From contig NZ_FTOQ01000022.1 of the NCBI RefSeq assembly GCF_900156805.1, positions 1 to 48,995 of the forward strand: 48,995 nt of DNA, written 5' to 3'. The first letter of the stretch is position 1; every line of letters starts with the position of its first letter. Under the pieces are notes generated by a model. That model was not told the DNA's origin, searched no databases, and saw nothing but the letters and a program-made list of their open reading frames with translations. The DNA comes from Roseivivax lentus (lineage in GTDB: Bacteria > Pseudomonadota > Alphaproteobacteria > Rhodobacterales > Rhodobacteraceae). A program made the translations under genes and the position numbers. Positions 284 through 36,789 of the stretch are shown piece by piece.

Positions 284-1552
284 TCAGTTGGATTGGCGAC
301 CGAAGCCACCGCGCCCGAAGCCCTGAGCGCCACGGTTGCGCAGCTGCTCCATCATCATCTGACGCCGCCGCATGCGACGCTGCTGGCGGCGCTCGGCCAT
401 GTCCTTGAGCTGCTCGGCCGAGACCCCCTCCTCGCGGCGCTTCTGGGCTTTTGCGTGGAAGCTCTCGCGCAAGTTGGCGAATTCGGCCTCGTAGATCTGC
501 AGAACCGCCTTGCCATCGGGCGATTTCAGCACCGCCTTGGCCTGCTCGACCCGCGCTATTGCTTCCTCGCCCTCCGGCATGTGGATCATCGAGGAGCGGT
601 AGCTGTTCTCTGCATCTTCAAAGCGGCTCTCTGCAGCAAAGGCATCGCCGTAAAGACGCTGTACCACCGGCAGAAGGTTGCGCCGGTTCACCTGAGCAAG
701 CATGGCCCGCGCTTCGGTCAGCTTCTTTTGCGGGATGAGCGCGCGGGCCATGGCGATGCGCACATTGCTGAGCCCGCGCTGCGGCTCGGCAGCCTCCAGC
801 ACCTTGCCGAGCGCCATCTCTGCGGCGGCGTAATCCCGCGTGGCTATTTTGAGCGTGCCGAGAAGCTGCAAGAGCGGCCGGCTGTCCGGCGAATGAACAA
901 GGGTCTCTTCGACCACTTTGATTGCGGCACCGGTCTCGTCGTTCTGGAAATGCAGCCGCGCGAGCGCAGTCGCCGTACGCACGTCCTTGGGATGCGTGTC
1001 GAGCGCGTGGCGCAGATGCACCGCCGCACCGCCCGGATCGTCGCGCTTGGCCAGGAGCCGCGCCATCTGCCGGCGGATGGCGGCGGATTCGGGATTGAGC
1101 GAGATCGCGTGGCTCAGAACTTCGACCGCCTGATCGAGATGGTTCTGCTGCTCGTGCAGCGAGGCAAGCCCCGTCAGCGCCGGGATCGAGGTCGGGTCGG
1201 CCTGCAGCGCCTTCTGATAATGCGTCTCGGCGTATTCCGCATTGCCGCCGCGTAGCCCCACGCTCGCCGCCAAGAGCGGCCCCATGCGGTTCTTGGGATC
1301 GACCCGCATCAGTTGCTCGAGCACGGCCGCGGCCTGTTCGAGTTCGTTGCTGCGCAGATGGCTGATCGCGAGGGTCAGCATGATCCGCGTATTCTGGGGA
1401 TCGCGTGCGAGCATATCGGTCAGCTCGGCCTGCGCCTCTGCGGTGCGCCCGTCGCGCATAAGCCCCCGCACGAAATTCATGCGCTCGCTGTCATCCTGGG
1501 CAACCTGCGAAACATTGGGCCGCCATTGTTGCGCTTCTTCTGTGTTTGGCAT
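284..1552 (-). CDS. TPR-repeat protein, last gene of the lipid-synthase block
   Basis: The 422-residue protein is built almost entirely of tetratricopeptide repeats, with helical pairs containing patterns such as A-x-LTGLASL and LNPESAA from about residue 20 to 330. TPRs mediate protein-protein contacts, so a scaffold or assembly role is likely but not shown. The C-terminus is different: a basic, Met/Arg-rich helix (about residues 375-405) followed by a short Gly/Arg/Phe tail ending GFGRGGFGRQSN. There is no signal peptide. A GTG at 1561 is also possible, but the strong AAGGGAGG Shine-Dalgarno lies 8 bases before the ATG at 1552, so I chose that start. It sits 85 bases downstream of the propeller-SDR gene on the same strand and is probably cotranscribed. 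Specific function is not recognised. Confidence 0.85.
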   Translation of the reverse strand: MPNTEEAQQWRPNVSQVAQDDSERMNFVRGLMRDGRTAEAQAELTDMLARDPQNTRIMLTLAISHLRSNELEQAAAVLEQLMRVDPKNRMGPLLAASVGLRGGNAEYAETHYQKALQADPTSIPALTGLASLHEQQNHLDQAVEVLSHAISLNPESAAIRRQMARLLAKRDDPGGAAVHLRHALDTHPKDVRTATALARLHFQNDETGAAIKVVEETLVHSPDSRPLLQLLGTLKIATRDYAAAEMALGKVLEAAEPQRGLSNVRIAMARALIPQKKLTEARAMLAQVNRRNLLPVVQRLYGDAFAAESRFEDAENSYRSSMIHMPEGEEAIARVEQAKAVLKSPDGKAVLQIYEAEFANLRESFHAKAQKRREEGVSAEQLKDMAERRQQRRMRRRQMMMEQLRNRGAQGFGRGGFGRQSN

Positions 1553-1637
1553 CGCCGCCACCTCCCTTGAAAATGCTTTGAACCCGTTTCTGAGTTTTCG
1601 AGCTTAAATTATTGCGACTTAGAGCGTTTCGTTTCGA

Positions 1638-4256
1638 TCAAGTCGCGGAAAAAAGTTTGTCGGGCTCCTGCGAGGCAGTCTCGATCGCTTCGTGCACCGC
1701 GTGCCTCGGGCTCACGGTCGGCTCAGAAGGTGCAAGCGCCGGTGGCACCGGCATGGTGCGGCTGGCATGGCCCGGATCGGGCAGCGCGCCGTCCTTCTGG
1801 GCCGCCTCGACAAGGCGGCGGACGCCTTCGAAGACGTTGACCGACGGGGTGAAGCCCAGATGCGCCTTGGCGTTGCCGATCTCGTATTGGCGCATGTAGC
1901 GCCCCCAAATCCGTGTCTGGTCGGGGGTATGGTCGTCATGGGTGGCGTTGCCGATTGCGATCCGGGTCAGCCGCCCGACCGTGGCATAGGTCACCGTGTC
2001 GGGGCCGGCCACGTTGAACGTTCCGTCCTTGGCACCGGCTTCGAAACAGGTACGCAGTATCGCCTCGACCGCGTCGTCCACATAGACGAACTGACGGTGC
2101 TGCTCGCCCTGCTGGCCTTTGCCGAAACTGGGGTTCGGAGCCCGGTCGCGCACGATCGGGTCGAACAGAGGATCGCCGATCCCGTAGACCAGCGCAAAGC
2201 GCAGGATGGCGTGTTCGTAGCTGCCGCGCTTGGCGTAGTGGCGCACGAGGTTCTCGCCCGCGATCTTGGACATTCCGTAATCGGCGAGGTCGTGGCCGCC
2301 ATCGACCCGCAAAGCGTGGCTTTCGTGGATCGGCCATTCCTTTTCGTTGAACTGGTTCTGGTAGACCGCGACCGAGCTCGAGAACACCACCCGTTCGAGG
2401 GTCTCGGACCCGTCGCAGGCGCGCAGCAGGTCGTGGGTGCCCTGCACGTTGGTGCGCCGCAGATCCGGCACCGAACACGTCCCGGCGAGCCGTGCCGCCA
2501 TGTGCAGCACCACGCGCGCGTCTTTGACCAGCGCCGCCAGAGCATCTGTGTCCTCAAGCCCGCCGGTGACAACCTCGACCTCGTCGCGGCGCACGAGGTC
2601 GGTCTCGGTGCCGGGCATCACCAGCACCCGCACCCGGTAACCGCGGTCGAGAAGCCGCGGCAGAAGATGCTTGCCGATATAACCCGTGGCCCCTGTGATC
2701 GCGATGTCGCAGCCTTTATCCTGGGCCTTGCTCTCGACCTCGGTCTCGGCGGCTTTGGGCGCAGGCAGCTCGTAGGCCTCCTTCTCGGCATTGCCGATGA
2801 ACACCTCGGTGCCGCCATCGGGGTTCTGGTGGTATTCCCAGCGCGAGGCGAATTTCGCAGGACTCGGGCCGCCGAACGGGTTGGCGCTACCCAAGGCGAG
2901 GCCTTCGGGCGTCGAAACCATGGTCCGGCCGCCGTAATTGTAAGGGTTGTCCATGCCGTTGAGCGTGACCGGCATCCAGTTGACGCCGTCCTTGGTGCGC
3001 CACATCTCGAAGCCGCCGCCCACTTCCGTCAGCTGATCGAAACCGATCCCGTTCAGAAGGCGGCGCGATGTGGGCGACGGGCGGTGCGCGTATTGCAAAA
3101 AGACGCTCCAGTCGAAGGTGGTGACATAGAGCCAGCCGTCGTGCTCGCACATCCGCCAAGTATAACCCGCGAAGATGTTGTCGAAGCCGGGGCCAAGGCC
3201 CGAGAGTGGGTATTTCATCCCGTCCGGCGTGTCGCGGGGCATGCCCACCAGCAGATCCCAGCTGTCATCGGGCCAGATGCGGATGATCTCGCCCGCGCCG
3301 GGGCCGACGAGGTTGGTGCGGTCATAGCCGCCGTTCTGGATCGAGGAGCCCACATAGAGCGCGCCGTTGAACTCGCACATGCCCATGGCAATCTCGGACA
3401 GGGGGCCGCGATGCGCGCCGCGGTCGATCACCTTGCGCCATTGCAAGGGGCCGTCACCGCAGGGCGGCGTGGTCCAGATCTGGTAGCCTTCGAAATGGTT
3501 GAAAGTGCCCGCGTAGAGCTGGCCGTTCGCCTGGGTCATCATGAAGATGCCGTTGTTGTTCGGATCGCCGAAGCCCAGATCGCCCGCCACTTCCCAATTG
3601 CCGGGTTTGGGGTCTTTCGACCGCATCAGAACGCCGGTGCGGTTCGAGTTGAATTGGATGCCCTCGCCCGCGGGCGGGGCATAGAGATAGCCGTCGAAGG
3701 AGACGAGCTCGCGGAAGGTCGAGATCCGGTCATTGCCGATGCCGGGCTCGGAGGCAGGCTCGAAATTCAAGCCGTCCTCGGAGCGCAGCACATGCGCCGC
3801 GCAGCCGCGCAGCACCGTGGACATGGTCGAGACATAGAGGTTCGGTTTGCTGTCCGAGGCCCCCTGGAAGACCTTCATGCCGCGGTAGCCGAGATCGCGC
3901 GGGGCGGGCTCGCCCTGCTTGCCGGGGATCATCGGCGAGCGGTAAGCCATCTCCCAGCTGTCTTCGCCGGGCGTCCAACGCCAGATCTGACCCTGCATGT
4001 CGAGATCCTGCACCTTGTCGGGCACATCGACCGGCCAGGGATCGAGCGCGGGCGGGTCAATCGGCGGGAAGAGCTTGAGAAGCTTGAAGGAATTGCGGGT
4101 CATGCCGCAATAAAGCCGACCCTCGAAGAACTCCATGCCGTGCACATAGGCGTTGTCCGGATCGCCGACGCCGTTCTTGGCGATCTTGCGAAAGTGGCTG
4201 CTCGTCAGACCCGTCCCCTGGCCCGGCCTTTTGCCGTTTCCGCCATCATTAGCCAT
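1638..4256 (-). CDS. Beta-propeller / extended SDR (NAD-dependent epimerase) fusion protein
   Basis: The 872-residue protein has two parts. Residues about 1-500 contain repeated strand motifs such as FEGRLYCG, FDGYLYAPP, NGQLYAGTF, FNGALYVGS and HDGWLYVTT, spaced like blades of a Kelch- or sialidase-like beta-propeller. Residues about 515-830 form an extended short-chain dehydrogenase: the Rossmann motif GATGYIG near 522 and a YGMSK (YxxxK) catalytic pair near 660, as in nucleotide-sugar epimerases, 3-beta-hydroxysteroid dehydrogenases and related reductases. There is no signal peptide, so it is probably cytosolic. Its start overlaps the end of the upstream hydrolase gene by 8 bases, implying translational coupling. 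The oxidoreductase half is secure as a family. The substrate is unknown; modifying the synthase product is an inference from position. This combination of domains is unfamiliar to me. Confidence 0.85.
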   Translation of the reverse strand: MANDGGNGKRPGQGTGLTSSHFRKIAKNGVGDPDNAYVHGMEFFEGRLYCGMTRNSFKLLKLFPPIDPPALDPWPVDVPDKVQDLDMQGQIWRWTPGEDSWEMAYRSPMIPGKQGEPAPRDLGYRGMKVFQGASDSKPNLYVSTMSTVLRGCAAHVLRSEDGLNFEPASEPGIGNDRISTFRELVSFDGYLYAPPAGEGIQFNSNRTGVLMRSKDPKPGNWEVAGDLGFGDPNNNGIFMMTQANGQLYAGTFNHFEGYQIWTTPPCGDGPLQWRKVIDRGAHRGPLSEIAMGMCEFNGALYVGSSIQNGGYDRTNLVGPGAGEIIRIWPDDSWDLLVGMPRDTPDGMKYPLSGLGPGFDNIFAGYTWRMCEHDGWLYVTTFDWSVFLQYAHRPSPTSRRLLNGIGFDQLTEVGGGFEMWRTKDGVNWMPVTLNGMDNPYNYGGRTMVSTPEGLALGSANPFGGPSPAKFASRWEYHQNPDGGTEVFIGNAEKEAYELPAPKAAETEVESKAQDKGCDIAITGATGYIGKHLLPRLLDRGYRVRVLVMPGTETDLVRRDEVEVVTGGLEDTDALAALVKDARVVLHMAARLAGTCSVPDLRRTNVQGTHDLLRACDGSETLERVVFSSSVAVYQNQFNEKEWPIHESHALRVDGGHDLADYGMSKIAGENLVRHYAKRGSYEHAILRFALVYGIGDPLFDPIVRDRAPNPSFGKGQQGEQHRQFVYVDDAVEAILRTCFEAGAKDGTFNVAGPDTVTYATVGRLTRIAIGNATHDDHTPDQTRIWGRYMRQYEIGNAKAHLGFTPSVNVFEGVRRLVEAAQKDGALPDPGHASRTMPVPPALAPSEPTVSPRHAVHEAIETASQEPDKLFSAT

Positions 4257-5178
4257 TCATGTAACCTTCTTCTTCGGGTTCTTGTTCGATGGCGCGCGAC
4301 GCTGGCGCGTCCAGCGCGACGGCACGGTCGATCACCGCGGCGTCCTCGACGATTGCGTTCGTCAGCATATCCGGCCGCATGACCGGGAAATAATGACCAC
4401 CCTGCACGTCCAGGCAGCGCGCCTTGGGCAGAAGCCTGCGCAGCGCATCCCGCGTTTGGGTATAGCGCGATCGCTGGCCATAGATCACCGTGACCGGCAT
4501 GGGCAGCGCTGCGATGCGCTCGGGTTCGAGATCGGTCGTCTGGTTGACCTCTTTCCAGGCATGGGTCGAGGCCATCAGCCTGCGCCATTTGCGCATGCCG
4601 TGCGGCGCGGGCTGGCCCGGCTGCCAGTCGGCAAAGCGCTGCAGCGCTTCGCGGGCCCCGGTCTCGCCCTCGGGCATGTCGACGAGCTCTTCGAGGAAGG
4701 CCATCATCACTCGCGGCATGTCGCTTTCGATATGGATGCCGCGGAGGCTGAGCCGCCGGCGCAGAGCGGCCCAGGCGCGCGGATTGGGGCTGTGGAACTG
4801 CTCCTGCAGGCTTGGCACCCAGGCATCGGCCAGCGTCAGATGTGCGACGCGGCGGCCTTGTCCGACGGCTACCGCAAGGGCAATCGCGCCGCCATAGGAG
4901 TGGCCGACCAGCGCTGCCCGGGTGATGCCCAGATGGTCGAGCAGGTGCAGCACATCCTGCCCGAGATTCGCGGCTCCGTAGCCGCGTTCGGTCATGCCGG
5001 AAAAGCCGTGGCCCTTGAGATCGACCGCAGTGACCCGGAAATGCTGCGCCAGCCGCGGCGCAATCGCCCCCCACCAGAACGCGATATTGCTCGACAGGCC
5101 GTGGATCAGGACGATGTCCGACCCCTCGCCCATCTGCTGGTAGTGAAATCGCGTTCCATTGAGTTCGATCCGGGGCAT
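4249..5178 (-). CDS. Alpha/beta hydrolase
   Basis: The 309-residue protein is a single-domain alpha/beta hydrolase. The oxyanion region LIHGLSSN is near residue 24, the nucleophile elbow GHSYGGA near 92, and the probable catalytic His is in GGHYF near 260. Such enzymes hydrolyse esters, thioesters or lactones. Next to a polyketide/lipid synthase lacking an obvious thioesterase domain, release of the chain from an ACP is a reasonable but untested role. It begins 7 bases after the phosphohydrolase gene and overlaps the propeller-SDR gene. No signal peptide is visible, so it is likely cytosolic. The C-terminal 25 residues are acidic and low in complexity. Confidence 0.88.
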   Translation of the reverse strand: MPRIELNGTRFHYQQMGEGSDIVLIHGLSSNIAFWWGAIAPRLAQHFRVTAVDLKGHGFSGMTERGYGAANLGQDVLHLLDHLGITRAALVGHSYGGAIALAVAVGQGRRVAHLTLADAWVPSLQEQFHSPNPRAWAALRRRLSLRGIHIESDMPRVMMAFLEELVDMPEGETGAREALQRFADWQPGQPAPHGMRKWRRLMASTHAWKEVNQTTDLEPERIAALPMPVTVIYGQRSRYTQTRDALRRLLPKARCLDVQGGHYFPVMRPDMLTNAIVEDAAVIDRAVALDAPASRAIEQEPEEEGYMNG

Positions 5179-5185
5179 GGCGGGC

Positions 5186-6787
5186 TCAGAGGTAGCCCAG
5201 CGCCTTCAGACGCTCGCGGATCTGTGCCTCGGCATCGGCCGAGAGGGTCTCCTGCTTGCCCGCGCCTGCACCGGTCTTGTCGGCAGTATAGGCCGGCGGC
5301 GTTGCCTCGAGCGTCTCGGGTGCAAAGAGCCCTTGTGCCAGCTTGCCCTCCATCGAACGTGGGATCTCGAGTCCCATGGAATAGAGCACGGTTGGGGCCA
5401 CGTCCGCGATGAACATCGGCGCGACCTCTTCGCCCGCGCGCATCCCCGGGCCATAGCCGATGATGATGCCGTCGGGATGATGCGTCGCATACGGTATCTT
5501 GCGATCCTTGATCGGCGCATCGGCGCGCAGCACCGACAGGAAGGAGTAGTCCGCAAGCTGTAGGGTCAGATCCGGCGCGCCGGCCATCTCGGTGCCGGGG
5601 AAGGCCTGTTCGCGGGTGAAGACGTCCTTGACCACCGCCCGGCCCGTCTCGGGGTCACGCAGCGCCTTGAGCTGCACGGTGAGCTTGTCGCGGAAGGTCT
5701 CGTATTCCTCCGGCGCAACGCCACCTGGATCGTCCTCCGAGGCGACACGGATGAAAATCGCATTCGACGAGGAGGACAGCGAGTAAGCCTTGGTCGCGTC
5801 CCAATCGATCAGCGTGCTTGCCTCGGTGTTCTCGTCGAGCGCCACGCGGCCCTGATCGTCCATCGGCACATCGGGCTTCCACTGCAACAGACCGAGGCCC
5901 TCGAGCCAGGTATTGGCATAGAAGATCCGCTTGCCCGAGCGGGTGAATCCGTGATCCGACACGATGAGCACCCGCGCCTCGGGTCCAGCCTTCTCGATCA
6001 TCTCGCCGATATATCGGTCCACATCGCGGTAATAGGACAACGCCAGATCGCTGGCCTTTCTCGATGCCTCGGTGTCATAATCGTCGCGGGTCTCGGGATC
6101 GATCAGGTGGTAGCAGAGATGCTGAATCCGATCGACGCCGTCGAACAAGACCGAGGTCAGCTCCGCGGGCTCCTCGTCCATCAGCGTCATCAGGATCTCC
6201 TGCCAGCGGTTCTCGCGAGTGATGTGGAACTGCACCCAGTCCTGCAGGTCGTTCTCGGCCAGGCCCTGCACCGCCTTGCGCTCATGCTGCCAATCGGTGG
6301 ACATCTCGCGGGCTTTGAAGACGCCCTTTTCCTTGAGCATTTTGAAAGCGGCTTTCGGATAGATCGCGCGACCGAGATAGGACCACGGCACGTAGCCGGG
6401 GATCACCACACCGTCCACGGGTTTGACCGGGAACATCGTGGGATAATTGAGCGAGGTCACGCGCTGGCCCGCCTCGCTGGCGATCTGCCAGATGGTCGGC
6501 ACCTTGAGGTCCGCCGAGGTGGCGAGCGTGTAGGTCGGCTTGCCCGCCTTCCGGTCAACCTTGATGAAGTCGAAAATACCGTGATTCCCCGGCGTGCGGC
6601 CAGTCATCAGCGTGGCCCAGGCGGGCGGGGTCAGGGGGTGCATTGTCGAGCGCAGGATCGCCCTGCAACCGCCCACCATGATGCGCTTGAGATTGGGCAT
6701 GTGCCCTTCGGCCACCAGCGGATCGAGAATGTCGTAGGTCGCGCCGTCGAGGCCGATCAGAAGGGTTTTGACGCTGTGTTCAGGCAT
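5186..6787 (-). CDS. Alkaline-phosphatase-superfamily phosphohydrolase/phosphodiesterase
   Basis: The 533-residue protein belongs to the type I phosphodiesterase / nucleotide pyrophosphatase branch of the alkaline phosphatase superfamily. The N-terminal LLIGLDGATYD carries the first metal-binding Asp. TPPAWATLMTG, near residue 64, places the likely Thr nucleophile. VSDHGF, near 277, and the late HHPDG region supply further metal ligands. The family cleaves phosphate mono- or diesters and sometimes sulfate or phosphonate bonds. I start it at the ATG at 6787, which gives the canonical N-terminus MPEHSVKTLLIG; a longer frame upstream would run through the ACP gene. It overlaps the ACP gene by 8 bases. 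No signal peptide is seen, so a cytosolic substrate such as an activated lipid or nucleotide adduct is inferred. Confidence 0.87.
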   Translation of the reverse strand: MPEHSVKTLLIGLDGATYDILDPLVAEGHMPNLKRIMVGGCRAILRSTMHPLTPPAWATLMTGRTPGNHGIFDFIKVDRKAGKPTYTLATSADLKVPTIWQIASEAGQRVTSLNYPTMFPVKPVDGVVIPGYVPWSYLGRAIYPKAAFKMLKEKGVFKAREMSTDWQHERKAVQGLAENDLQDWVQFHITRENRWQEILMTLMDEEPAELTSVLFDGVDRIQHLCYHLIDPETRDDYDTEASRKASDLALSYYRDVDRYIGEMIEKAGPEARVLIVSDHGFTRSGKRIFYANTWLEGLGLLQWKPDVPMDDQGRVALDENTEASTLIDWDATKAYSLSSSSNAIFIRVASEDDPGGVAPEEYETFRDKLTVQLKALRDPETGRAVVKDVFTREQAFPGTEMAGAPDLTLQLADYSFLSVLRADAPIKDRKIPYATHHPDGIIIGYGPGMRAGEEVAPMFIADVAPTVLYSMGLEIPRSMEGKLAQGLFAPETLEATPPAYTADKTGAGAGKQETLSADAEAQIRERLKALGYL

Positions 6788-7073
6788 CGCTGGGCTCCTC
6801 GGCGCTGACCGCCACGAGGCCCGACAGGATGTCGCCCATATCCATGTCTTTGAGCAAACGGTCGCTTTCGCGCAGGTGCTGGAACAACCGGTCGCCAAGC
6901 TCGAAATGCTGCTGCAGCTCCGAGATCAGGTAAATGAGGCTGATCGATTCCATGCCGAGATCGAGAAGCTTGGTGTCGCGGTCGAACTCGACCACATCCG
7001 CCTCGAGATCCTCCGCGAGATCCTCGAAAATGCTACGCAGCGCAGCCTCGGCTGTCTCGATGGTGATTGCCAT
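6780..7073 (-). CDS. Stand-alone acyl carrier protein
   Basis: The 97-residue acidic protein matches a carrier protein. DLGMESISLIYL, near residue 46, contains the Ser that accepts 4'-phosphopantetheine, in an LG-x-ES context slightly different from the usual DSL. It would carry an acyl chain as a thioester between enzymes of this block; the PPTase domain of the adjacent synthase could activate it. Two in-frame ATGs exist (7079 and 7073). AAGGGA lies 8 bases before 7073 and only 2 before 7079, so 7073 is preferred. It lies 12 bases after the synthase stop and overlaps the next gene. It is clearly distinct from the two nearly identical ACPs inside the large synthase, which suggests a different partner or step. 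Confidence 0.88.
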   Translation of the reverse strand: MAITIETAEAALRSIFEDLAEDLEADVVEFDRDTKLLDLGMESISLIYLISELQQHFELGDRLFQHLRESDRLLKDMDMGDILSGLVAVSAEEPSDA

Positions 7074-7085
7074 ACACATGTTCCC

Positions 7086-14900: not shown

Positions 14901-17900
14901 GGCCCAACCTCGATGAAGAGCCGCGCGCCCGCTTCGTGCATGGCCGTGACCTCGCCCTGGAAGTTTACCGGGCTTGTGAGGTGGCGCGTGAGTTGCTCCG
15001 AAATCGCCGCTGGATCAGCGGGATATGGCGCGGCGGTCTCGTTCGAAAAAACCGGCGCGGCGGGGGCGGCGAGCGGCGTGGCAGCGATGGCCTCGGCCAG
15101 CCGGTCGCGCGCAGGGGCCACGAAATCCGAATGGAACGCGCAATGCACCGGCAGACGCCGAGTGCGGATACCCGCCGCGGCGAGTTTCTCTTCGGCGGCG
15201 GCAAGGGCCACGTCTGAGCCTGCGAGCACCGTCTGGCTCGGCGCGTTCAGATTGGCGATGGTCAGGCCCTCGAGACCTGACGTCGCCGCCTCGATCGTCG
15301 GCGCATCGGCACTCACGGCGGTCATGCAGCCGAGATCGTCGCCCCCTTCGCGGATGATCGCGTGGCCGCGCGCATGGGCAAGGCGCACCAGCGCCGCATC
15401 GTCCATGGCTCCGGCGGCGCAGAGCGCGGTCAGCTCACCGAAGCTGTGGCCCGCATAGGCCCCGGCGTCGGCTCCGAGATCACGCAAGAGCGACAGGATC
15501 GCGAGCGACACCGCGCCGATGGCAGGTTGCGCCCGGTCGGTCTGTTTCAGACGGGCTGCATGAGCCTTGCTCTCCTCCTCGGAGAAGGCTGGTCGCGGAA
15601 AGATCACCTCGGAGAGGGGCGCGTCAAGCTTGCCCTCAAGCTCCCGGCCAGCCCTTTCCAGAGACGCACGAACCTGCGGGAAGTGCATCGCGAGGCCCGC
15701 GGCCATGTCGGGATATTGCGAACCCTGCCCTGAGAACAGGAACGCGACTTGATCCTTGGTCAGCGGTGTACCCGTTGCCGCGAAGGCCCCGAGAGGGTCG
15801 ACTTCGCGCAGATCGCCGCCCGCGCCAAGCGTGCCTGCGGCACGGGCAAGCCGCGCGGCCGCGTCCGCATGGCTACCGCTCACAAGCGCGAACCGCGCAG
15901 GCGCCGAGGCATCGTAGCGCTTGGAGAGGCTTGCCGCGATATCGTGCAGGGGCGTGTCGCCATGGGTGCTGCCCAGCGCTTCGGCGGCGCGGGCGAGCGC
16001 CTGCGACAGCGCCTCATTATCCGCAGCCGAGAAAAGCAGTAGCTCATGCGACCAGTGCTTGCGGAAGGGTTCCTGGTGGCTCGGCAGGTAGCCACCGCGG
16101 TATTCCTCGAGCACGGCGTGGAAATTCGTGCCGCCGAAACCGAAGGCCGAGACGCCCGCGCGCCGCGGCGCATCGGAGGTCTTGAGCCAGGGCCGCGCCG
16201 CGCCCAGAACGTAGAACGGGCTTTCGGGGAAGTTCGCCGTAGGGCTCGGAGATTCGACATTGAGCGTGGGTGGCATCACCTTATGGTGAAGCGCGAGCGC
16301 CATCTTGACCATGCCCGCACAACCTGCAGCGGCCTTGGTGTGGCCGATCATCGACTTCACGGAGCCCACGCCGCAGAATTGCTTGTTCTCCGAGGCTTCG
16401 GAATAGACCGCTGACAGGCTCTCGATCTCGGTGCGGTCGCCGACCACGGTGCCGGTACCATGGGCCTCGACCAGCTCGACCGAGGCTGGCGAAATGCCCG
16501 CATGGGCGTAGGCCCGGCGCAAAGTCTCCTGCTGGCCTTCGGGGCGCGGTGCGGTCAGCGACAGATCGCGCCCGTCGGACGCCCCGGCCACACCGCGCAG
16601 GACGGCATAGATCCGGTCGCCCGCGGCTTCAGCCGCCGGCAGGGGCCGGAGTACGAGACTCACCAACCCTTCCGAGATCGCGATGCCGTCGGCGCTCTCG
16701 TCAAAGGTGCGGCAGCGCCCGCGCGGCGACAGCGCCCGGGTCTTGGAGAACGCGATAAAGTCGAATGGCGACATGAAGGCATCGACGCCCGCGACGATGG
16801 CCATGTCGGCAGCCCCCGTCTCCATTTCGCGCACGCCCGCGAGGACAGCGGCGAGCGACGAGCCGCAGGCGGCGTCCACGGTGAAGTTCACGCCGCCCAA
16901 ATCGAAGCGATTGGCCACGCGGCCCGCGATCACGTTGAGCAGGATGCCCGGGAAGCTGTCCTCGGTCCATTCCGGCAGCTTGTCACGCGCCACATCCGGC
17001 AGCTCACCCAGAAGCGCGCTGAGCGAGGAGCGTACGGCATATTGCTGCCCCATAGGCGCCGCGCCGCCGCCCACGCCGATCACGACGCAGGTGCGCCGGC
17101 GCAGGTCGGGGTCAGGAATGACACCGTCCTTGAACCCGGCATCTTCGAGCGCCTTGCGCACCATCTCTAGGGCTAGCATCTGCAGGGGTTCGATTTGGGC
17201 GACCGAATTGGGCGGGATGCCGTAGCGTATCGGGTCGAAGGCGATTTCGTCCACGAAACCGCCCCACTTGGAGTAGGCCTTGTCGGCGGCATCGCGGTCG
17301 GCATCGAAATAGCGCCGCCAATCCCAGCGCCGCTCGGGCACTTCGTCGATGGCATCCACCTTGTCGAGGATGTTTTCCCAGTATTGCGACAGCTCCGGAG
17401 CTTTCGGCAGGATCGTGGACATGCCGGTGATGGCGATGCGCAGTCCCTCGCTCGGCTCTTGCACCTCGGTCTCGGGCCCGAGCGCCTTGGCGGCGGAACG
17501 CAACATGTCGGTCGAGGCCTCGCTCACATCCAGATGTAGCGCGGCCATCGAAAGGTCGGCATGGTGCAATCCGGCCACTTGACCGATCATGTAGACGCCG
17601 GAGGCCAGCTGATCTTCGGGCGACACGACGATGTATTTCTCGACGCCCTCGCGGGTGCCGAAATCGGGGTTGCGGTCGATGCCCTTGGCCGCAACGCGCG
17701 AGCGGCCAATGCTGAGGTTCTCGAGTTTGTCGCGGATCGTGTCGGGGTCGAGTCCTTCGCCGATCATACGCGCCTTTTCGCGAGCGAATTCCTCGGCGAT
17801 AGGGCTTTGGACAACGCGGGTGGCATGGCCGACCCCGGATTCCAGAAGCACCGTTCCGGACATGCCGAGCACCAGTTCCTGATATTTCGGCACCACGGCC

Positions 17901-19525
17901 CCGGCGGCCACGGCCTCTTGCGTAAGAATATAGGCGCTGCCCATGAGAGCCCCGATCCGCGCGCCCTGCTGTGAGGCATCGGCCGCCAGCACCGACACCA
18001 TCGCCGCAGAGGCCGCGTCATGCAGACCGCCTGCGAACAGCAAGTCGCAATCCATCGGCTTGTCGCCGTAGAAGTCGCGCAGGCTGTCGAGCGCCTGTTG
18101 CCACAGAATAGCCGAGGTCCGCGGCCCCACATGGCCGCCGCATTCGCGGCCCTCGAAGATGAATCGCCGCGCGCCCTGTTGTAAAAACGCGGTCAGCAGG
18201 CCCGGCGAGGGCACGTGCAGGTAGGTCGGAATGCCCGCTTTCTCGAGCGCGAGCGCCTGTTCCGGGCGTCCTCCCGCGATCAGGGCGTAATCGGGCTTGG
18301 CCGCGAGGATGATCGCGAGTTGCTCTTCACGCAGCGCATCGTCGACAAAGCCAAGAATGCCGACACCCCAGGGCTTGTCGCCCAGCCTTTCCTTGGTCTC
18401 GCGCACGAGCTCCTGCGCCTCCTGCCCACGCATGAGCGCTAGGGCGAGAAAGGGCAGCGCACCATTCTCGGCCACCGCAAGCGCGAACTCGGCGCGGTCG
18501 CTGACGCGCGTCATCGGGCCCTGAACGATCGGGAAGCGCGTGCCATGCGCCCGGGCGAGCGGGGCTTCCGGGGAGAGCGGCGCAAGTGATGCGGCGATCT
18601 CGATCTGGCTGCGTGAACGCATCTCGAGTCTGCGAAGCGCGGCGCCGAGACGGCCATAACGGCGCAGCAGCCCGGCTGCGAGGGCGGCATCCTGGCCGGT
18701 GAGCCACGGCCCTGCGGCGGGATCTGCGGCCAGACGCCCGGCGATTTCGGCTCCGAGTTTCTCGGGCGCGCTGTGCGACACCGCTTCGAGCGCTTGTCCC
18801 GGTTTATGATCGGCGCGCCAGAAGATGCGGTAGCCGGTGGCCGAGTCGACCGCCAGCACGCGGGTTTCGCTGCCATCCATGCGCGACAGAATGCGGGTCA
18901 TGTCCTCCGGAGCACCCGCGGCCTCGAAAAGGGTCAGCTGCCAGTCGAGGATCACACCGGCGGCCCCGGCCACGCGGAAGGCCGCGATGGTGTCGGCCCC
19001 GACCCCACCCTGCACGAAACAGGGCAGATCAGTGCGGCTGAGAAGCCGCTGCAGCAAGATGAAGCTCGTCTCGTCGCCGACACGCCCGCCGGATTCGCTG
19101 CCCTTGGCGACGATAGCCTCGGGCGCGATGGCCTTGACCGAGGCAAGATCCGCCTCGGAAGTGACTTCCAGCCAGACAGACAAGCCCGGCGCTGCCTTGC
19201 GCAGAGCCCGCATCGTCTTGGCTCCGACCTTGTCCGCATCGCCTGCAATCAAGAGCGTGGAAAAGCCAGCTGCACTCGGGAACGGCGAGTCGAGAAGTGC
19301 GGGGAGCTGCATCGCATCGACCCGCAGGCCCCAGCCCGCGGGCGCGCCGGCAGAAAGCTGCGCCGCAAGATCCGCGGCCGCCGCCGTGTCGAGCGACAGA
19401 TATTGCGCATCGACCAGGCCGAGATGGCCTGCCCGGGCCGCGGCCACCGTCAGCGATGCGCCCGGCAGATTGGGCACCGTCGCGGCGACGATGGCGAAGG
19501 ACGATTCGCTCGACTGGGTTGACAT
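11909..19525 (-). CDS. Lipid/polyketide synthase A: ER-like barrels-KS-AT-ACP-ACP-KR
   Basis: The 2538-residue protein combines PfaD-like and PfaA-like parts. Residues about 1-660 form two nitronate-monooxygenase/enoyl-reductase-like TIM-barrel units; the second contains FPIVQGPM and EGRECGGHVGPRTS. The ketosynthase follows (about 695-1140; Cys in DAACGSSL, His in EAHGTGTVVGD and VKSMIGH). Next are an acyltransferase (about 1255-1570; SGQGSQYPDM, GHSFGEL) and a long Ala/Pro linker. Two almost identical carrier domains (about 1792-1882 and 1900-1990) each have LGIDSIKR, the signature of PUFA-synthase ACPs. Last is a ketoreductase (about 2240-2450; VTGGARGITA, SDYGAANE). The ATG at 19525 is preceded at 8 bases by GAGGAAG; the frame upstream of it is low in coding character. 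It is the core chain builder of the block. The product cannot be deduced. Confidence 0.93.
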   Translation of the reverse strand: MSTQSSESSFAIVAATVPNLPGASLTVAAARAGHLGLVDAQYLSLDTAAAADLAAQLSAGAPAGWGLRVDAMQLPALLDSPFPSAAGFSTLLIAGDADKVGAKTMRALRKAAPGLSVWLEVTSEADLASVKAIAPEAIVAKGSESGGRVGDETSFILLQRLLSRTDLPCFVQGGVGADTIAAFRVAGAAGVILDWQLTLFEAAGAPEDMTRILSRMDGSETRVLAVDSATGYRIFWRADHKPGQALEAVSHSAPEKLGAEIAGRLAADPAAGPWLTGQDAALAAGLLRRYGRLGAALRRLEMRSRSQIEIAASLAPLSPEAPLARAHGTRFPIVQGPMTRVSDRAEFALAVAENGALPFLALALMRGQEAQELVRETKERLGDKPWGVGILGFVDDALREEQLAIILAAKPDYALIAGGRPEQALALEKAGIPTYLHVPSPGLLTAFLQQGARRFIFEGRECGGHVGPRTSAILWQQALDSLRDFYGDKPMDCDLLFAGGLHDAASAAMVSVLAADASQQGARIGALMGSAYILTQEAVAAGAVVPKYQELVLGMSGTVLLESGVGHATRVVQSPIAEEFAREKARMIGEGLDPDTIRDKLENLSIGRSRVAAKGIDRNPDFGTREGVEKYIVVSPEDQLASGVYMIGQVAGLHHADLSMAALHLDVSEASTDMLRSAAKALGPETEVQEPSEGLRIAITGMSTILPKAPELSQYWENILDKVDAIDEVPERRWDWRRYFDADRDAADKAYSKWGGFVDEIAFDPIRYGIPPNSVAQIEPLQMLALEMVRKALEDAGFKDGVIPDPDLRRRTCVVIGVGGGAAPMGQQYAVRSSLSALLGELPDVARDKLPEWTEDSFPGILLNVIAGRVANRFDLGGVNFTVDAACGSSLAAVLAGVREMETGAADMAIVAGVDAFMSPFDFIAFSKTRALSPRGRCRTFDESADGIAISEGLVSLVLRPLPAAEAAGDRIYAVLRGVAGASDGRDLSLTAPRPEGQQETLRRAYAHAGISPASVELVEAHGTGTVVGDRTEIESLSAVYSEASENKQFCGVGSVKSMIGHTKAAAGCAGMVKMALALHHKVMPPTLNVESPSPTANFPESPFYVLGAARPWLKTSDAPRRAGVSAFGFGGTNFHAVLEEYRGGYLPSHQEPFRKHWSHELLLFSAADNEALSQALARAAEALGSTHGDTPLHDIAASLSKRYDASAPARFALVSGSHADAAARLARAAGTLGAGGDLREVDPLGAFAATGTPLTKDQVAFLFSGQGSQYPDMAAGLAMHFPQVRASLERAGRELEGKLDAPLSEVIFPRPAFSEEESKAHAARLKQTDRAQPAIGAVSLAILSLLRDLGADAGAYAGHSFGELTALCAAGAMDDAALVRLAHARGHAIIREGGDDLGCMTAVSADAPTIEAATSGLEGLTIANLNAPSQTVLAGSDVALAAAEEKLAAAGIRTRRLPVHCAFHSDFVAPARDRLAEAIAATPLAAPAAPVFSNETAAPYPADPAAISEQLTRHLTSPVNFQGEVTAMHEAGARLFIEVGPNAVLSRLAGQILEGKTHLAVATDINGRDTMQQLLSALGAMSTAGLPLALSKLFARRAKDDLDVVNWTAPKSNAPAHKMIWMLDPGGARPKDGARPRIGFSARIEDDVPLAAKHEASMTQTPPAASAASPASSAVPEQPGPVAAVTPPAAQPTVPLPQAAEIMQRHHELVGRLLDTHAETMRLFLAAQSASSGSTPILAAPAASSLQTTPQMAVPVQQPAPVAAPETAAAVAPIATPEPAAPAAAQVTAGEAMPTRESVTAKLLELLADRTGYPADMLAPDLNLEADLGIDSIKRVEILASLRLAFLADAGEAAHEKMGPVAKEKTIDGIVARFMDVAEAVSGPAPVASPVAEAAPVAPAMPSRESVTAKLLELLADRTGYPADMLAPDLNLEADLGIDSIKRIEILASLRLAFLADAGEAAHEKMGPVAKEKTIDGIVARFMDVAEAVTCKSGSVVPLSAPKETEAPMPSGDARYVMVPVKATVPVPQAWVTKGGRYLLTRDRQGVADALAVRIEAAGGKTLCLDPDALKDSDSITRVIGDISEIAGIFHCADLQSATGSGLDADGSIAAIRGGTRTLYALLTSLGAVISQRCGLRVVAVTAMGGQFGFGAEAPADPTQAGAPGVLKTLAKEWTDAHVRAVDLEPGLPASAVAEILFDEAGRGDDHVEIGWRAGQRWHLAAERRAVTLPETPVGAGFLDDGATVLVTGGARGITATCVLWLAERYKARFVILGSSPLPEGAESPETAVITDPVKLRAALAQMPAKGGGRRAIAEIESEHRAILKTREIRNTFARIKAFGGQVEYHACDVRDRAALKAVIDDVYARHGQIDGVIHGAGIIEDRLIVDKTLDSYDRVMTTKAHSAFYLAEALRPDALRFLAFFTSVAGRFGNRGQSDYGAANEIVSKFARTLDAVWPGRVVALSWGPWDSGGMVSDEIKKQFTALGIEAIQPDLGRRALEAELSSERDRVPEVVWGNGPWAWDFDGLSRSDKDIRAAE
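13556..14149 (-). repeat. Two near-identical ACP-coding repeats, period 324 bp
   Basis: The DNA at 13556-13825 and 13880-14149 is almost identical, with a 324-bp offset. It encodes the two tandem carrier domains of synthase A, whose protein sequences differ at only a few positions (for example SIKRV versus SIKRI). The intervening Ala/Pro linker is not part of the match. Near identity at the DNA level points to recent duplication or ongoing gene conversion. Tandem ACPs are usual in PUFA synthases, where copy number affects yield. Confidence 0.9.
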
Positions 19526-19933
19526 GCTGTCCACTTCCTCGCATCCGCAGGCGGCGTCGGGTGCGCTGTGGAAAGAGTGCTCGCACGGGCCGCGGCGCAA
19601 TACCACGTTCTATCCCGAAAGGCAGCGCGACCGCAGCGGTCACGGGGCCTCGAACCCAAGCTGTGCAGCGCTGTGCCTCAATCTCACCGAAACTGCGCTG
19701 CCTCTTCCCCGTGCTCCCTCGAACTCTCCCACGTACAGGCAAAAACTGAATAATCTGTGTCCTAGCTTATCCGCCCGGCCTGCGCCCTGTCCATAAACCT
19801 GGGTTAGAATCTCTCATGCTGAACATCGCAGCGGTGAAAATTGCCGCGATGCGGCGCGTTGCAGCAACACATTGCCCGTGCATGGGCTACCCATTTTGGA
19901 AACGTTAGCCTGCCATACACGCCAATTCCGGTC
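19526..19933. other. 408-bp gene-free interval with stacked inverted repeats
   Basis: No convincing gene lies between the sulfotransferase stop and the start of synthase A. The part nearest the sulfotransferase holds three small dyads in a row: 19824-19851 (CATCGC...GCGATG type), 19858-19868 (GTTGCAGCAAC) and 19874-19887 (GCCCGTGCATGGGC). The half nearest the synthase is less GC-rich and contains, on the minus strand, TGGACA followed after 18 bases by TAAGCT. This could be a sigma-70-like promoter, though it is a weak match. The simplest reading is that transcription of synthase A has its own control point, with possible termination or regulator binding upstream. Confidence 0.45.
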
Positions 19934-22417
19934 TCAGCGGAAGATCGAGAGCCCGTGCATCATCATCCCCATCACGAGACCGGACTGCGTATGGCCGCCT
20001 TCGGTAACGGAAAACAATGCGGGCTGCGCGAAGCTGCGCGCGCCGGGCAAGGCGGCTCCTTCCTGATCGACACGAAGCGCATGACCCCAGAGCGGCACAA
20101 CGCGAAGCTCCGGCTCTGTCCGGACCTCCAACGCAGTAAGGAACGGAAAGGAGCGCATGGACGATGCCTCCCAGACCGCGAGAGCCACATAGGCGACGAA
20201 GTTCCGGTCGCCGCGGTCGCGGGCGATGGTGATCGGGGAGGAAAACTCTGCCGTGGTCGCTTTGCTGGCAATCTCCGGCACCAAGCAATCGAGTGGGGAC
20301 AGCACAAGGTCGGGCACGATCTCGCCCTCCCGCATCGTGGCCTGCGCAAAGATCATCATCGCAAAGCGATGACATGCGAGAAGCGTGTCGGTGAGCTGGT
20401 CGATGGCCGGTGCCGCAGTAACTTTTGGGTCGTCGGGATGAAAGGCCACGCAACGCCATTGCCGGACCAGCCGGTCGCCCTCGTCCCGAGTGGCGGTGAA
20501 TTGATAGACCGCACCGTCCTCAGACGGGCCGATATCTTCCGGAAAGGAGTTGCAGAACACCACGAGCTTGCCGTCCTCGCGCAGCCGCGAGACTGGCGAG
20601 CCGCCCACCCTACCGTCGCCCACGGCCCCGATCACCTGGTGGGCGGGCATCGTGTCCAAGGTGATTCGTTCCGGCAGTTGCTCGATCCGGCTGTCCGCCG
20701 TGCCCGAAACCTGTAGGCGCAACAGACTGGTCGGCAAGGCGTCGGAGAATGACACATCGACGTGGGTGGCGAACTTGCCCTGAAAATAGGCGTGATCGCC
20801 ATGCAGCACGATCGACTGGCGCACCTTAAAAAAGCCCGGGATCCAGTCTCCGGCGTGATAAAGCCGGGTCGAGAGGTCCCGGATATCGAGCGTCGCACCG
20901 GTCAATGGGTCGAGTTTGCCGACATAGCCGTTGCGACTTCCGTAAACCAAGGCATTGTCGCGGCTGTAGCGCAGGCAGCGCGGAGTGCCGTGGTCGCGTG
21001 CGGCAGCGCCGAACACCGAAACGATGTCGCACGTCGGCCTGCGCCAGATCACCTTGCCGTCCAGATCGAGACACACAATCTCGACGCGATTTCCGGCGTA
21101 TATGCAGCGCCGCGTCCGACCATTCTCGAAGATCAGTCGCACCAGTAACAGCCCCCCGAGAAAGCGCCCCGGCAGGCCGTCCGACGGCATCGGCAATAGG
21201 TCCAGTTCGGATTGCCAGAGAACCTCGCCAGATTTCAGGTCGATCCCTTCGAGCGCAGGCTCCTGCGCGCTGTCGAACACCGCCACCGCGTAATCCGATG
21301 CTGTGAACGCCCCGAAATTGCCGCCGCCATAGCTTGGCTCGGGCTTATGTTGCACCGAATTGACCCGGCGCAGCGGCGGGAGCCCGACGCAGGAATTATC
21401 CAGAAGCGAGCCATGGGCCATCGGGAAGCCCTCGCCGTCGGGCTCGATTGCGGTCAGCTTGCCCCAGCTCCCGTCGAAGCCCTCAGGCAGCGCAGGCGCG
21501 GGCATCGGGTCGTCGGTATAGCCGAATCTCCGGGCGCGGTGGATGACTTCGGGCGTGAAGCCTTCCATGTCTCCCCGCCACGGTAGGCGCGCCGAGAGCG
21601 GAACCTTGGGTGGCGTGAAGGGACGTAGCTCGGGGCTTTCTAGAAAGCCCGGATCGTTCCCGAGTTCGGCATTATATGGCCCCGGCGTCGCGAAGGGCGA
21701 ACGTTCGGGATGTAGCATTGCCTCGATGGCAGCGTCAGAATCATCGATCTCCAGCCAAAGTGCGATTTTCCGCAAGACCCTCCGCGGGTCGGCCAGTAGG
21801 TCCTCGCCCCGGATAGTGCGATGGCTGTCGGGCGACAGTGATGCAAAGAAGCGGTCGATCCGGTCGTGGATATCCAGCCAGTGAAACTGCGGATCGAGCG
21901 TCGGCGGATTGGTGCACTGGTCCCACGCGCTGCCGCCCCAAGCGCGCAGACCAGCCAGATACCAGCCCGTCGCAACGATGGACTTGCCGTTGGAATAGGG
22001 GTGCCGCGCGATCCGCAGGTATTTCGCCCCGGTCGAGATCTGCGGCAGCCGCGCCAGAGAGGTGTCGGTCATAACGTGCAGCGGGCTCTTGTCGACGAGC
22101 CTGCGGGGATGGACCAGCCGCTCGGCATGATCGTAAAGCTGCCCGGTGGTCATATGGCCCCGCGCCTGCAGCCAGCGGTCGACATCGTCGACGGCTGCGG
22201 CCGTCTGCACCCCGTGATGCAGGTAGGCGAGCATCCGCAGAACCCCTGCCCGGAACGCCGTCATTCCCGGCAAGGTGTTGTACCACCGGCCTACCGTGTC
22301 GGAGGTCGCGAGGTTGGTTTCAGGCAGGCCGAATAACTCGGGATGCTGTCCGATCATCGACCCGATCACAGAGGTGAATGAGCGCCCTGGACCCAGAATG
22401 AAAATTGGCTCGCGCAT
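19934..22417 (-). CDS. Sulfotransferase fused to a PQQ-like beta-propeller
   Basis: The 827-residue protein opens with a sulfotransferase domain (about 1-280). ILGPGRSFTS matches the 5'-phosphosulfate-binding loop for PAPS, and RHPYSNGKS near residue 137 resembles the 3'-phosphate-binding segment. It would move sulfate from PAPS to a hydroxyl or amine. From about residue 300 the protein turns into beta-propeller sequence, with repeats of the type LDLDGKVIW, IDLKSGEVLW and KLDPLTGATL, like PQQ-binding-repeat proteins. Quinoprotein catalysis is not implied, and no signal peptide is present. The ATG at 22417 is chosen because it starts directly before the fold (MREPIFILG); the extension to 22468 is unlikely. 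A palindrome lies just upstream. It leads the synthase block and may sulfate the product; that is inference. Confidence 0.85.
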   Translation of the reverse strand: MREPIFILGPGRSFTSVIGSMIGQHPELFGLPETNLATSDTVGRWYNTLPGMTAFRAGVLRMLAYLHHGVQTAAAVDDVDRWLQARGHMTTGQLYDHAERLVHPRRLVDKSPLHVMTDTSLARLPQISTGAKYLRIARHPYSNGKSIVATGWYLAGLRAWGGSAWDQCTNPPTLDPQFHWLDIHDRIDRFFASLSPDSHRTIRGEDLLADPRRVLRKIALWLEIDDSDAAIEAMLHPERSPFATPGPYNAELGNDPGFLESPELRPFTPPKVPLSARLPWRGDMEGFTPEVIHRARRFGYTDDPMPAPALPEGFDGSWGKLTAIEPDGEGFPMAHGSLLDNSCVGLPPLRRVNSVQHKPEPSYGGGNFGAFTASDYAVAVFDSAQEPALEGIDLKSGEVLWQSELDLLPMPSDGLPGRFLGGLLLVRLIFENGRTRRCIYAGNRVEIVCLDLDGKVIWRRPTCDIVSVFGAAARDHGTPRCLRYSRDNALVYGSRNGYVGKLDPLTGATLDIRDLSTRLYHAGDWIPGFFKVRQSIVLHGDHAYFQGKFATHVDVSFSDALPTSLLRLQVSGTADSRIEQLPERITLDTMPAHQVIGAVGDGRVGGSPVSRLREDGKLVVFCNSFPEDIGPSEDGAVYQFTATRDEGDRLVRQWRCVAFHPDDPKVTAAPAIDQLTDTLLACHRFAMMIFAQATMREGEIVPDLVLSPLDCLVPEIASKATTAEFSSPITIARDRGDRNFVAYVALAVWEASSMRSFPFLTALEVRTEPELRVVPLWGHALRVDQEGAALPGARSFAQPALFSVTEGGHTQSGLVMGMMMHGLSIFR

Positions 22418-22460
22418 CGTATCCGCCTGAAATATCTTAATAAAAAAACTGACCAACGGA

Positions 22461-22482
22461 GAGGTCACGAATTTGTCACCTC
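22461..22482. promoter_or_regulatory. 22-bp imperfect palindrome upstream of the sulfotransferase
   Basis: The arms GAGGT-n-AC-n-AA and TT-n-GT-n-ACCTC pair at 18 of 22 positions around a central AATT. The site ends 44 bases before the sulfotransferase ATG on the minus strand, next to an A/T-rich stretch containing TTATTAAGATAT, a possible -10 region. The symmetry is that of a dimeric repressor or activator site. No candidate regulator gene adjoins it in this window. Confidence 0.5.
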
Positions 22483-23454: not shown

Positions 23455-23640
23455 GCGTATTCCCTTTTCGAGCCGTATGGGGCGGAGCACGTCCGCCGCG
23501 CTTATTCAGACACAAACGGAAGCGCCTACGCGCATCAAGGTCTAATAGTTAACTCGGCGAATACCGAGCGCCGAAATCACGTTTCGACGAACGCAAATGG
23601 TTCGATGTCGCGCAAATCTCACCGGCGGCAGCGCACAAAC

Positions 23641-24459: not shown

Positions 24460-24518
24460 GTCCTGCTCCGCTGCGTGTAATAACGGCCCAGTCCTAACAA
24501 TTCTATGGCGCAATGAGC

Positions 24519-24533
24519 ATGCTAAATTTGCAT
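24519..24533. promoter_or_regulatory. Palindrome between divergent genes
   Basis: ATGCTAAATTTGCAT is a 15-bp near-perfect dyad in the 212-bp region between the minus-strand glycine-rich gene and the plus-strand SDR gene. Its position fits a shared operator. No regulator is identified and chance cannot be excluded. Confidence 0.3.
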
Positions 24534-24671
24534 ACCGCACTTCTTTTCGCCGCCGCACGCGCGCGGAACGCGCCTCCGGCTCGGAGCAGGGCCCCTTGAT
24601 CATCCCTGCGTTCCATATGAGAAACCATTTCTCAGCGATCAAACGCGCATTCCAGGCAGGAAGTCGAATAC

Positions 24672-34085: not shown

Positions 34086-34238
34086 GATTCGTTCGCCGTT
34101 TTTCCTAACAACCTTCCGGCCAAACAAGCGCCACAAGTCTTAAGATCTGGCGAAACACGGCCCTCCGCGGCCCGTCGCGCCCGGAATCGCGCCGCCCGCC
34201 CCCGGCACAGCACTTCTCCGACATGGCGCCGAAAAATC

Positions 34239-34254
34239 CTTTGCGCGCGTAAAG
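34239..34254. promoter_or_regulatory. LacI-type operator in front of the regulator gene
   Basis: CTTTGCGCGCGTAAAG is a 16-bp dyad with one mismatched pair and a central CG, the usual architecture of LacI-family operators. It lies 43 bases before the regulator ATG, so autoregulation is likely. The same core, CGCGCGTAAA, recurs in front of the polyol operon. Confidence 0.6.
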
Positions 34255-34297
34255 AAATCAGCAATACTTTGAAAAAGATTTCCGCCCGGGAGCCGGC

Positions 34298-35332: not shown

Positions 35333-35376
35333 AGGACCGGAAATATACGAATGGAACCAATGACCTGACACCAAAA

Positions 35377-35390
35377 TTATCGCGCGTAAA
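35377..35390. promoter_or_regulatory. Operator-like site in front of smoE
   Basis: TTATCGCGCGTAAA shares the core CGCGCGTAAA and a partial dyad with the site before the regulator gene. A second arm, CGCGCGATA at 35403-35411, forms a spaced inverted repeat with TATCGCGCG at 35378-35386. The pair lies 48-81 bases before the smoE start, where repressor binding would block transcription. Confidence 0.55.
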
Positions 35391-35458
35391 TTTTTGATTG
35401 ACCGCGCGATAGAAAGTAGCTCATGATCGTCAAGCATTCACCAAGGGAGGACATCCGG

Positions 35459-36775: not shown

Positions 36776-36789
36776 ACCCGGCACTTCCC

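Follow-up and report, generated by a model that had tools for sequence, protein, structure and literature searches.

The window analysed here is the complete contig C46 (48,995 bases) of the marine bacterium Roseivivax lentus, whose genome comprises 4.44 Mb in 46 contigs. It carries a gene cluster with two synthases related to those of polyunsaturated fatty acids (PUFAs), a sulfotransferase and two beta-propeller fusion proteins. From the sequence alone, an initial annotation had proposed a self-contained lipid/polyketide cluster with a sulfotransferase at this place. Eight minus-strand genes between positions 284 and 22468 hold every part that it had named, as borne out by Pfam matches, motifs, open reading frames (ORFs) and coding-like GC content. 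In the order of transcription, these genes encode a sulfotransferase-propeller fusion, synthase A, synthase B, an acyl carrier protein (ACP), a protein of the alkaline phosphatase (AlkP) superfamily, an alpha/beta hydrolase, a fusion of a propeller with a short-chain dehydrogenase/reductase (SDR) and a tetratricopeptide repeat (TPR) protein (Table 1). Third-position GC was coding-like (0.76–0.84) in the seven frames tested, i.e. six cluster ORFs as listed and the longer AlkP frame; the ACP of 99 amino acids (aa) is missing from the printed list.

From synthase A through the propeller-SDR gene, adjacent ORFs overlap or lie at most 8 bases apart, and by this layout the row is an operon. A gap of 76 bases separates this row from the TPR gene, and the contig stops 283 bases past that gene; the downstream border thus coincides with the contig end, and the self-contained nature proposed earlier is putative. 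The sulfotransferase-propeller gene is found 327 bases upstream of A, outside the tight row that begins with A. The other seven genes, from A to TPR, are closely spaced.

Table 1 Genes of the cluster and a possible accessory gene in the window (aa, amino acids; other abbreviations as in the text)
Feature	Position	Strand	Evidence
Sulfotransferase (~aa 20-330 of long ORF) fused to BamB/PQQ-type beta-propeller	19934..22468 (likely start 22417)	-	PF13469, PDB matches, Foldseek
Synthase A: ER-like barrels, KS, AT, ACP, ACP, KR	11909..19606	-	Pfam, TIGR02813, motifs
Synthase B: KS (active-site Cys present), AT, PS-DH-like region, C-terminal PPTase	7086..11909	-	Pfam, motifs
Free-standing ACP, 99 aa	6780..7079	-	PF00550 1.5e-7
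AlkP-superfamily type I phosphodiesterase-like protein	5186..6784 (from its ATG; listed frame 5186-6898)	-	PF01663 5.6e-41 on longer frame; homologs in related clusters
Alpha/beta hydrolase, possible releasing hydrolase	4249..5178	-	PF00561 1e-23; alignment A5
Kelch-like beta-propeller (aa 1-500) fused to extended SDR	1638..4256	-	AlphaFold2, Foldseek, PF01370 3.8e-33
TPR protein, last gene before contig end	284..1561	-	Pfam TPR families; Actibacterium TPR gene at same place, 40-42%
PHB-depolymerase-like esterase, possible accessory, probably secreted, just upstream of sulfotransferase	22516..23490	-	NF050058 118.6 bits, below cut-off 150

Against Pfam, synthase A matched the families for NMO (two stretches), ketosynthase (KS), acyltransferase (AT), PP-binding (two stretches) and ketoreductase (KR), and synthase B those for KS, AT, PS-DH (3.4e-6) and ACPS. 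The KS and AT domains of the two synthases, the KR, the two ACP domains and the phosphopantetheinyl transferase (PPTase) all show their motifs. A pattern search for the dehydratase (DH) histidine motif gave no match in B. H1215 and D1262 of B are identical across 11 aligned records, three of which were aligned via a second, weaker match, and DH activity of this polyketide synthase (PKS)-type region is putative. Judged by these domains, a set for iterative chain building is present, namely a KS and an AT in each synthase, two ACP domains and the free ACP, KR, the DH-like region, enoyl reductase (ER)-like barrels and PPTase.

Synthase A scored above the cut-off of the PfaA model TIGR02813 (1101.3 versus 1010.1 bits). 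A Pfam scan, run without positive control, detected no FabA-type dehydratase at E<=1e-3 in A or B. Each protein holds one KS with its active-site Cys, and no pair of KS and chain length factor (CLF) was seen. Since a FabA-type DH was not found and the KS of B keeps its Cys, two hallmarks of PUFA synthases were not seen, and A is not a typical PUFA synthase. The cluster combines a PfaA-like KS with tandem ACPs, a KR, an ER and a PPTase, and in the broad sense the system is a secondary lipid synthase. Given the two hallmarks not seen, a chain with some hydroxyls or saturated stretches would be as likely as a polyene. In other Roseivivax and in Tritonibacter (L034, L032, L150/L151), synthase A continues beyond its KR with a segment that has a weak match to the DH region of B, as in PfaA; A of the window ends soon after its KR.

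Conservation and spread of the cluster

The initial annotation had suggested comparing the gene order with other genomes, and the order from A to TPR indeed recurs in Actibacterium mucosum and A. lipolyticum, with identities of 66% for the KS-AT part of A, 64-66% for that of B, 68-69% for AlkP and 84-85% for the propeller. The predicted chain-building set and its tailoring genes are conserved as a row in Actibacterium and rearranged elsewhere. Among nine genomes of the genus, including the own one, the pair A and B was present in four, and this sulfotransferase in the same four; in the other five, B-like matches were no better than 5e-75 and the sulfotransferase gave none at 1e-5.

A scan of named genomes with an alignment of the SDR-linked propeller yielded 47 loci. 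Within up to 10 kb on each side (many loci are shorter than these flanks or cut by contig ends), alpha/beta hydrolase occurred at 24, AlkP at 22, sulfotransferase at 22 and a relative of the esterase at 18 loci; KS-AT of the A/B kind, for which the A and B queries cross-match, lay near 14. At 12 of the 22 loci combining propeller and sulfotransferase-family genes, the two are same-strand neighbours within 300 bases. Starting from 17 propeller loci, we searched the 16 other genomes behind them. All 16 encode a B-like synthase (best E 4.2e-214 or lower), located within 45 kb on the propeller's contig in 14, and 14 encode the sulfotransferase, in 13 cases on the propeller's contig.

In a sample of 248 genomes of the same family (one per genus, own included), we detected the propeller in 7, the sulfotransferase in 8 and the DH-PPTase part of B in 7, with overlaps of 6, 6 and 5. 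The corresponding Fisher p-values, which treat genomes as independent, were 6e-10, 1.6e-10 and 1.5e-7 (1.7e-8, 4.9e-9 and 3.4e-6 without the own genome). In this sample, the joint occurrence of propeller, sulfotransferase and synthase B is far above that expected by chance. In samples of the class, the propeller was found in 1/385 genomes (the own one) and the sulfotransferase in 2/289 (the own one and one distant match of 29%). None of 72,556 plasmid records carried the propeller at E<=1e-3; the DH-PPTase part matched five and the sulfotransferase query three of them.

Relatives were found in other proteobacteria, cyanobacteria, planctomycetes and Desulfobulbaceae. For a tree of the A KS-AT region, 15 of 26 records were used, the rest being without a long A match or scoring better as B. 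In this tree, the window clusters with Actibacterium (100/100) rather than with the Roseivivax copies of its own genus, to which it is 46-48% identical; Fischerella joins the gammaproteobacterium Panacagrimonas (100/99). Horizontal spread of the cluster is the simplest reading. Together with Actibacterium, the window sides with Streptomyces, Beijerinckia and Methylosinus, in which no propeller was seen, against the other propeller-bearing clusters (100/99). This split implies that the accessory set was either lost on the Streptomyces/Beijerinckia/Methylosinus side or joined the synthase more than once. A phytochrome gene (75%) and sugar-transport genes (solute-binding protein 97%) are found close to the cluster in the window as well as in G293 (L030); in the window, these phytochrome and sugar ABC genes span 31836-37756. 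This looks like two diverged cluster versions at one chromosomal place.

The sulfotransferase, the propellers and the hydrolases

A first query with PF00685 gave three matches elsewhere in the genome and none in the window, because the window gene belongs to PF13469 (7.2e-15). Among PDB sequences, only 4gox (olefin synthase (OLS) sulfotransferase, 3.5e-16) and 4gbm (CurM sulfotransferase, 3.9e-15) matched at E<=1. In a predicted model of the fusion (overall pLDDT 70), the sulfotransferase domain is confident and the C-terminal half is not. Foldseek again placed 4gbm (TMt 0.83) and 4gox (0.77) in the lead, with the other sulfotransferases among the best 50 rows below 0.5. The protein keeps the loop for the sulfate donor PAPS (GRSFTS) and the DKSP motif. 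According to sequence and predicted fold, it is of the CurM/OLS kind and, among solved structures, closest to these PKS sulfotransferases, whose substrates are chains held on a carrier. As far as the accessible text of PMC3903477 goes, the CurM and OLS domains reside within a PKS together with a thioesterase, whereas the window sulfotransferase is a separate protein that would work, if at all, in trans.

The C-terminal half of the low-confidence model matched BamB/PQQ and other propellers in Foldseek, and the A. mucosum ortholog of this half has a PQQ_2 match at 1.3e-6, in agreement with the sulfotransferase-propeller fusion described earlier. Our searches returned one full-length ortholog of the fused form, that of A. 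mucosum (43%), and in both genomes the fused form is the sole match. In A. atlanticum and in A. lipolyticum, a single unfused family member lies near the cluster instead; its loop reads PKSYTS rather than the usual P[GP]RS[FY]TS.

The propeller-SDR fusion was also confirmed: the propeller part was modelled by AlphaFold2 with a pLDDT of 90.1 and resembles Kelch, sortilin and GH74 propellers (Foldseek), and it has no Pfam match at E<=1e-3. A common family for both window propellers was not supported (probability 0.2% in a profile comparison, one side of which was a two-row profile). Ten fused or longer propeller ORFs were scanned, revealing a methyltransferase in five, an SDR in one (Actibacterium) and a FlgD-Ig-type tail in two, both from Poribacteria and one with a Por_Secre_tail match; two gave no match. 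The C-terminal domain of the sulfotransferase fusion was found at 0/47 propeller loci. Alignment A3 comprised 38 of 46 extracted propellers, the window and three L029 copies, and alignment A4 25 of 35 sulfotransferases, the window, L154 and two sequences from L029. Weaker propeller relatives (29-37%) occur in Poribacteria and Hydrogenedentota (L073, L074, L078, L080-L085, L088), and the other cluster queries gave no match at these loci. More widely, distant relatives (L073, L074, L078-L085, L087, L088) occur in Poribacteria, Hydrogenedentota, one member of the Nitrospiraceae and one Phycisphaerae bacterium, nearly all without other cluster matches.

In the alpha/beta hydrolase, S94 and H262 are invariant and D118 is nearly so among ten aligned proteins (A5), and Ser94-Asp118-His262 is the likely catalytic triad. 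Close kinship with the CurM thioesterase was not seen in the best 60 of 77 or the best 60 of 421 matches; the latter set holds the PDB matches of the hydrolase profile at E<=1e-5. The CurM thioesterase presumably has its acid soon after the nucleophile, as does the likely triad here. A second AlkP-superfamily protein, AlkP2 (L030:10756-11670 and relatives), matches the sulfatase family PF00884 at 4.7e-10 and occurs in 9/14 mapped stretches, though not in the window. Read by eye, it carries Thr at the position where, as we assume, sulfatases have a modified Cys or Ser.

A possible sulfated lipid and its alternatives

As the mechanism and ALTERNATIVES, we tentatively favour, at slightly less than even confidence, an iterative lipid synthase with sulfation of its carrier-bound chain, i.e. 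a specialised sulfated-lipid cluster. The PPTase of B would arm the ACPs, and A and B would extend a malonyl-derived chain on the tandem ACPs, with keto groups reduced to a variable degree so that hydroxyls or double bonds are left. The sulfotransferase would then sulfonate a hydroxyl of the ACP-held chain from PAPS, the SDR may adjust a keto or hydroxyl group, and the alpha/beta hydrolase would free the chain. The AlkP-type protein may form or cleave an ester of phosphate or sulfate on the product or head group, and it is probably the role of the propellers to hold the long chain, or the carrier of this chain, for the fused or neighbouring tailoring enzyme. From the earlier proposal of a sulfated or otherwise decorated long-chain product, the secondary lipid synthase with an associated sulfotransferase stands, by linkage and co-occurrence across genera and phyla; that the sulfate is kept in the final product is what we infer.

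A broader idea, which we consider possible but doubtful, is that of a multi-phylum family of lipid synthase clusters in which beta-propellers act as presenting modules for the chain or its carrier, allowing site-specific tailoring, e.g. sulfation, in trans from an iterative, module-free synthase. It builds on the SDR, methyltransferase and sulfotransferase that come with a propeller, by fusion or as a partner gene, and on the second, unrelated propeller fold joined to the window sulfotransferase. Relatives in several phyla and such varied partners go beyond what the initial annotation could see.

Several observations weigh against a sulfated product. No sulfotransferase was found in 2/16 genomes behind the propeller loci, Halioglobus and a fragmented metagenome-assembled genome, and none is annotated near the A relatives of Streptomyces, Methylosinus and Beijerinckia, for which the gene table is incomplete. 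In the family sample, G446 and G539 have the sulfotransferase without propeller and B, G314 lacks B but has the other two, G621 lacks the sulfotransferase but has propeller and B, and G548 has B alone; moreover, cluster copies, in part from these genomes, served to build the profiles for propeller and sulfotransferase, which favours cluster-type matches. The sulfotransferase of A. mucosum, its only match, is located on another contig than A and B. In a simple motif test of 35 sulfotransferase-family genes from 19 loci (L048, L050 and L086 were dropped by the extraction filter), 19 genes had RS in the PAPS loop, two had KS (A. atlanticum, A. lipolyticum) and 14 had neither. At 12/19 loci, at least one RS-bearing gene is accompanied by one loop-less gene, and two loci (Sinimarinibacterium, Oceanococcus) hold a loop-less gene only. 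The loop-less copies argue against treating every family member as an active enzyme. Finally, the two best-matching solved sulfotransferases serve pathways that lose the sulfate, according to the accessible text of PMC3903477. After the loop-less result, we lowered our confidence in a sulfated-lipid cluster from an even balance to a little below it; that in an alkene route and in a bystander sulfotransferase, both set out below, was raised, and that in a PUFA cluster dropped marginally.

Loop-less copies stand beside loop-bearing ones at, e.g., L055, L059, L056 and L060, and another is L029:14845-15657. In three Roseivivax clusters a loop-less copy adjoins B; that of G293 falls below the PF13469 cut-off (1.3e-4). 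The idea that several sulfotransferases mean several sulfations was dropped, as many extra copies lack the PAPS loop. Judging from the motifs, the loop-less protein is probably a pseudo-enzyme partner kept across genera, and the recurring pair would fit a two-part tailoring enzyme.

Since the nearest sulfotransferases use sulfate as a leaving group (PMC3903477, accessible text), transient sulfation was kept as an alternative, unlikely but to be taken seriously: a terminal beta-hydroxyacyl-ACP would be sulfonated, and release by the hydrolase with decarboxylation and loss of sulfate would yield a long-chain terminal alkene, following curacin/olefin synthase logic with the parts in trans. The resemblance of the sulfotransferase domain to CurM and OLS in sequence and predicted fold argues for this route, and the hydrolase with its likely triad lies in the same row. 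Where a loop-bearing sulfotransferase is present, it is at most loci the only one of its kind, which is what a single terminal step would need, but L049, L057, L068 and L077 have two each. It also speaks against an alkene that the CurM thioesterase is not among the best 60 of 421 PDB matches of the hydrolase profile, and that the hydrolase adjoins A, B and ACP in Streptomyces NBC_00984, where no sulfotransferase is annotated.

Alternatively, the sulfotransferase and its propeller could be a neighbour gene with another role, e.g. in envelope glycan or head-group sulfation, outside the synthase pathway in this genome. We regard this as improbable, as relatives of the sulfotransferase domain are linked to or co-occur with propeller and B elsewhere, and the fused form of the window and A. 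mucosum and the unfused near-cluster member of A. atlanticum and A. lipolyticum appear as if substitutes. Such a bystander role would nevertheless agree with the 327 bases between the gene and A, the separate contig in A. mucosum, the absence of the fusion's C-terminal domain from the 47 propeller loci and the two related clusters with a loop-less sulfotransferase only. An ordinary PUFA (Pfa) synthase cluster surrounded by bystander genes seems highly improbable: A does exceed the PfaA cut-off, and ER, tandem ACPs and KR are shared with PfaA/PfaD, yet neither A nor B showed a FabA-type dehydratase at E 1e-3, the DH match points to the PKS type, and the active-site cysteine is retained in the second KS, so that no KS-CLF pair is seen.

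Relation to known systems and flanking genes

A literature search among open-licence papers found no description of this cluster, and the accessible text of a survey of PUFA-synthase hybrids (PMC13291983) contained none of the terms sought. Among published systems, the swf cluster of sponge symbionts comes closest, as described in the accessible text of PMC3908369, which likewise combines a fatty acid/polyketide synthase (mono-modular) with a sulfotransferase gene. Its product is not known; an alkyl sulfate was considered by the authors. In that text, swf comprises one KS-AT-DH-ER-KR-ACP protein, SwfA, a fusion of sulfotransferase and thioester reductase and, in 2/3 clusters, a radical SAM gene, with no mention of a propeller, AlkP or second synthase, whereas the window has two synthases and a sulfotransferase-propeller fusion.

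Pfa and secondary lipid synthase clusters, as far as the main text of Shulse and Allen 2011 (PMC3098273) describes them, are alike in their PfaA-related KS-AT-ACPn-KR protein, NMO-type ER, second KS protein and PPTase. The window differs by ER-like barrels on the N-terminus of A, the PPTase on B, a DH of the PKS instead of the FabA type and no CLF seen. The word "sulfotransferase" occurs nowhere in that main text; its Type O (Dinoroseobacter, Parvularcula, Gloeobacter) could be kin. Heterocyte glycolipid (hgl) clusters likewise pair a Pfa-related synthase with tailoring genes for a long-chain lipid, but with a sugar head group, and the accessible text of PMC11804610 mentions no sulfotransferase or propeller. 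A plasmid cluster of Streptomyces sp. NBC_00984 (L007) shares the succession of A, B, ACP and alpha/beta hydrolase; it differs in that a glycosyltransferase and a methyltransferase follow and no AlkP, propeller or sulfotransferase is annotated.

The cluster links Pfa-like lipid synthases with curacin/olefin-type sulfotransferases, in a combination that recurs in unrelated bacteria including named culture-collection strains. It could yield sulfated lipids of a new class or represent a bacterial route to long terminal alkenes. The propeller family has no Pfam match in the proteins scanned and several tailoring-enzyme partners, so that its possible part in carrier-bound chemistry can be tested directly.

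Among the flanking genes, the esterase upstream of the sulfotransferase has a signal-like N-terminus, as judged by eye. A minus-strand ORF with glycine-rich repeats and no Pfam match (23641-24642) lies between the cluster and its neighbours. Further along, a Radical SAM/SPASM protein with no cluster link seen is encoded at 44122-45201. At the far end of the contig (45973-48937) are the transposition genes TniQ and TniB, in a stretch of low GC content (0.555 for 46-48 kb versus 0.62-0.71 elsewhere).

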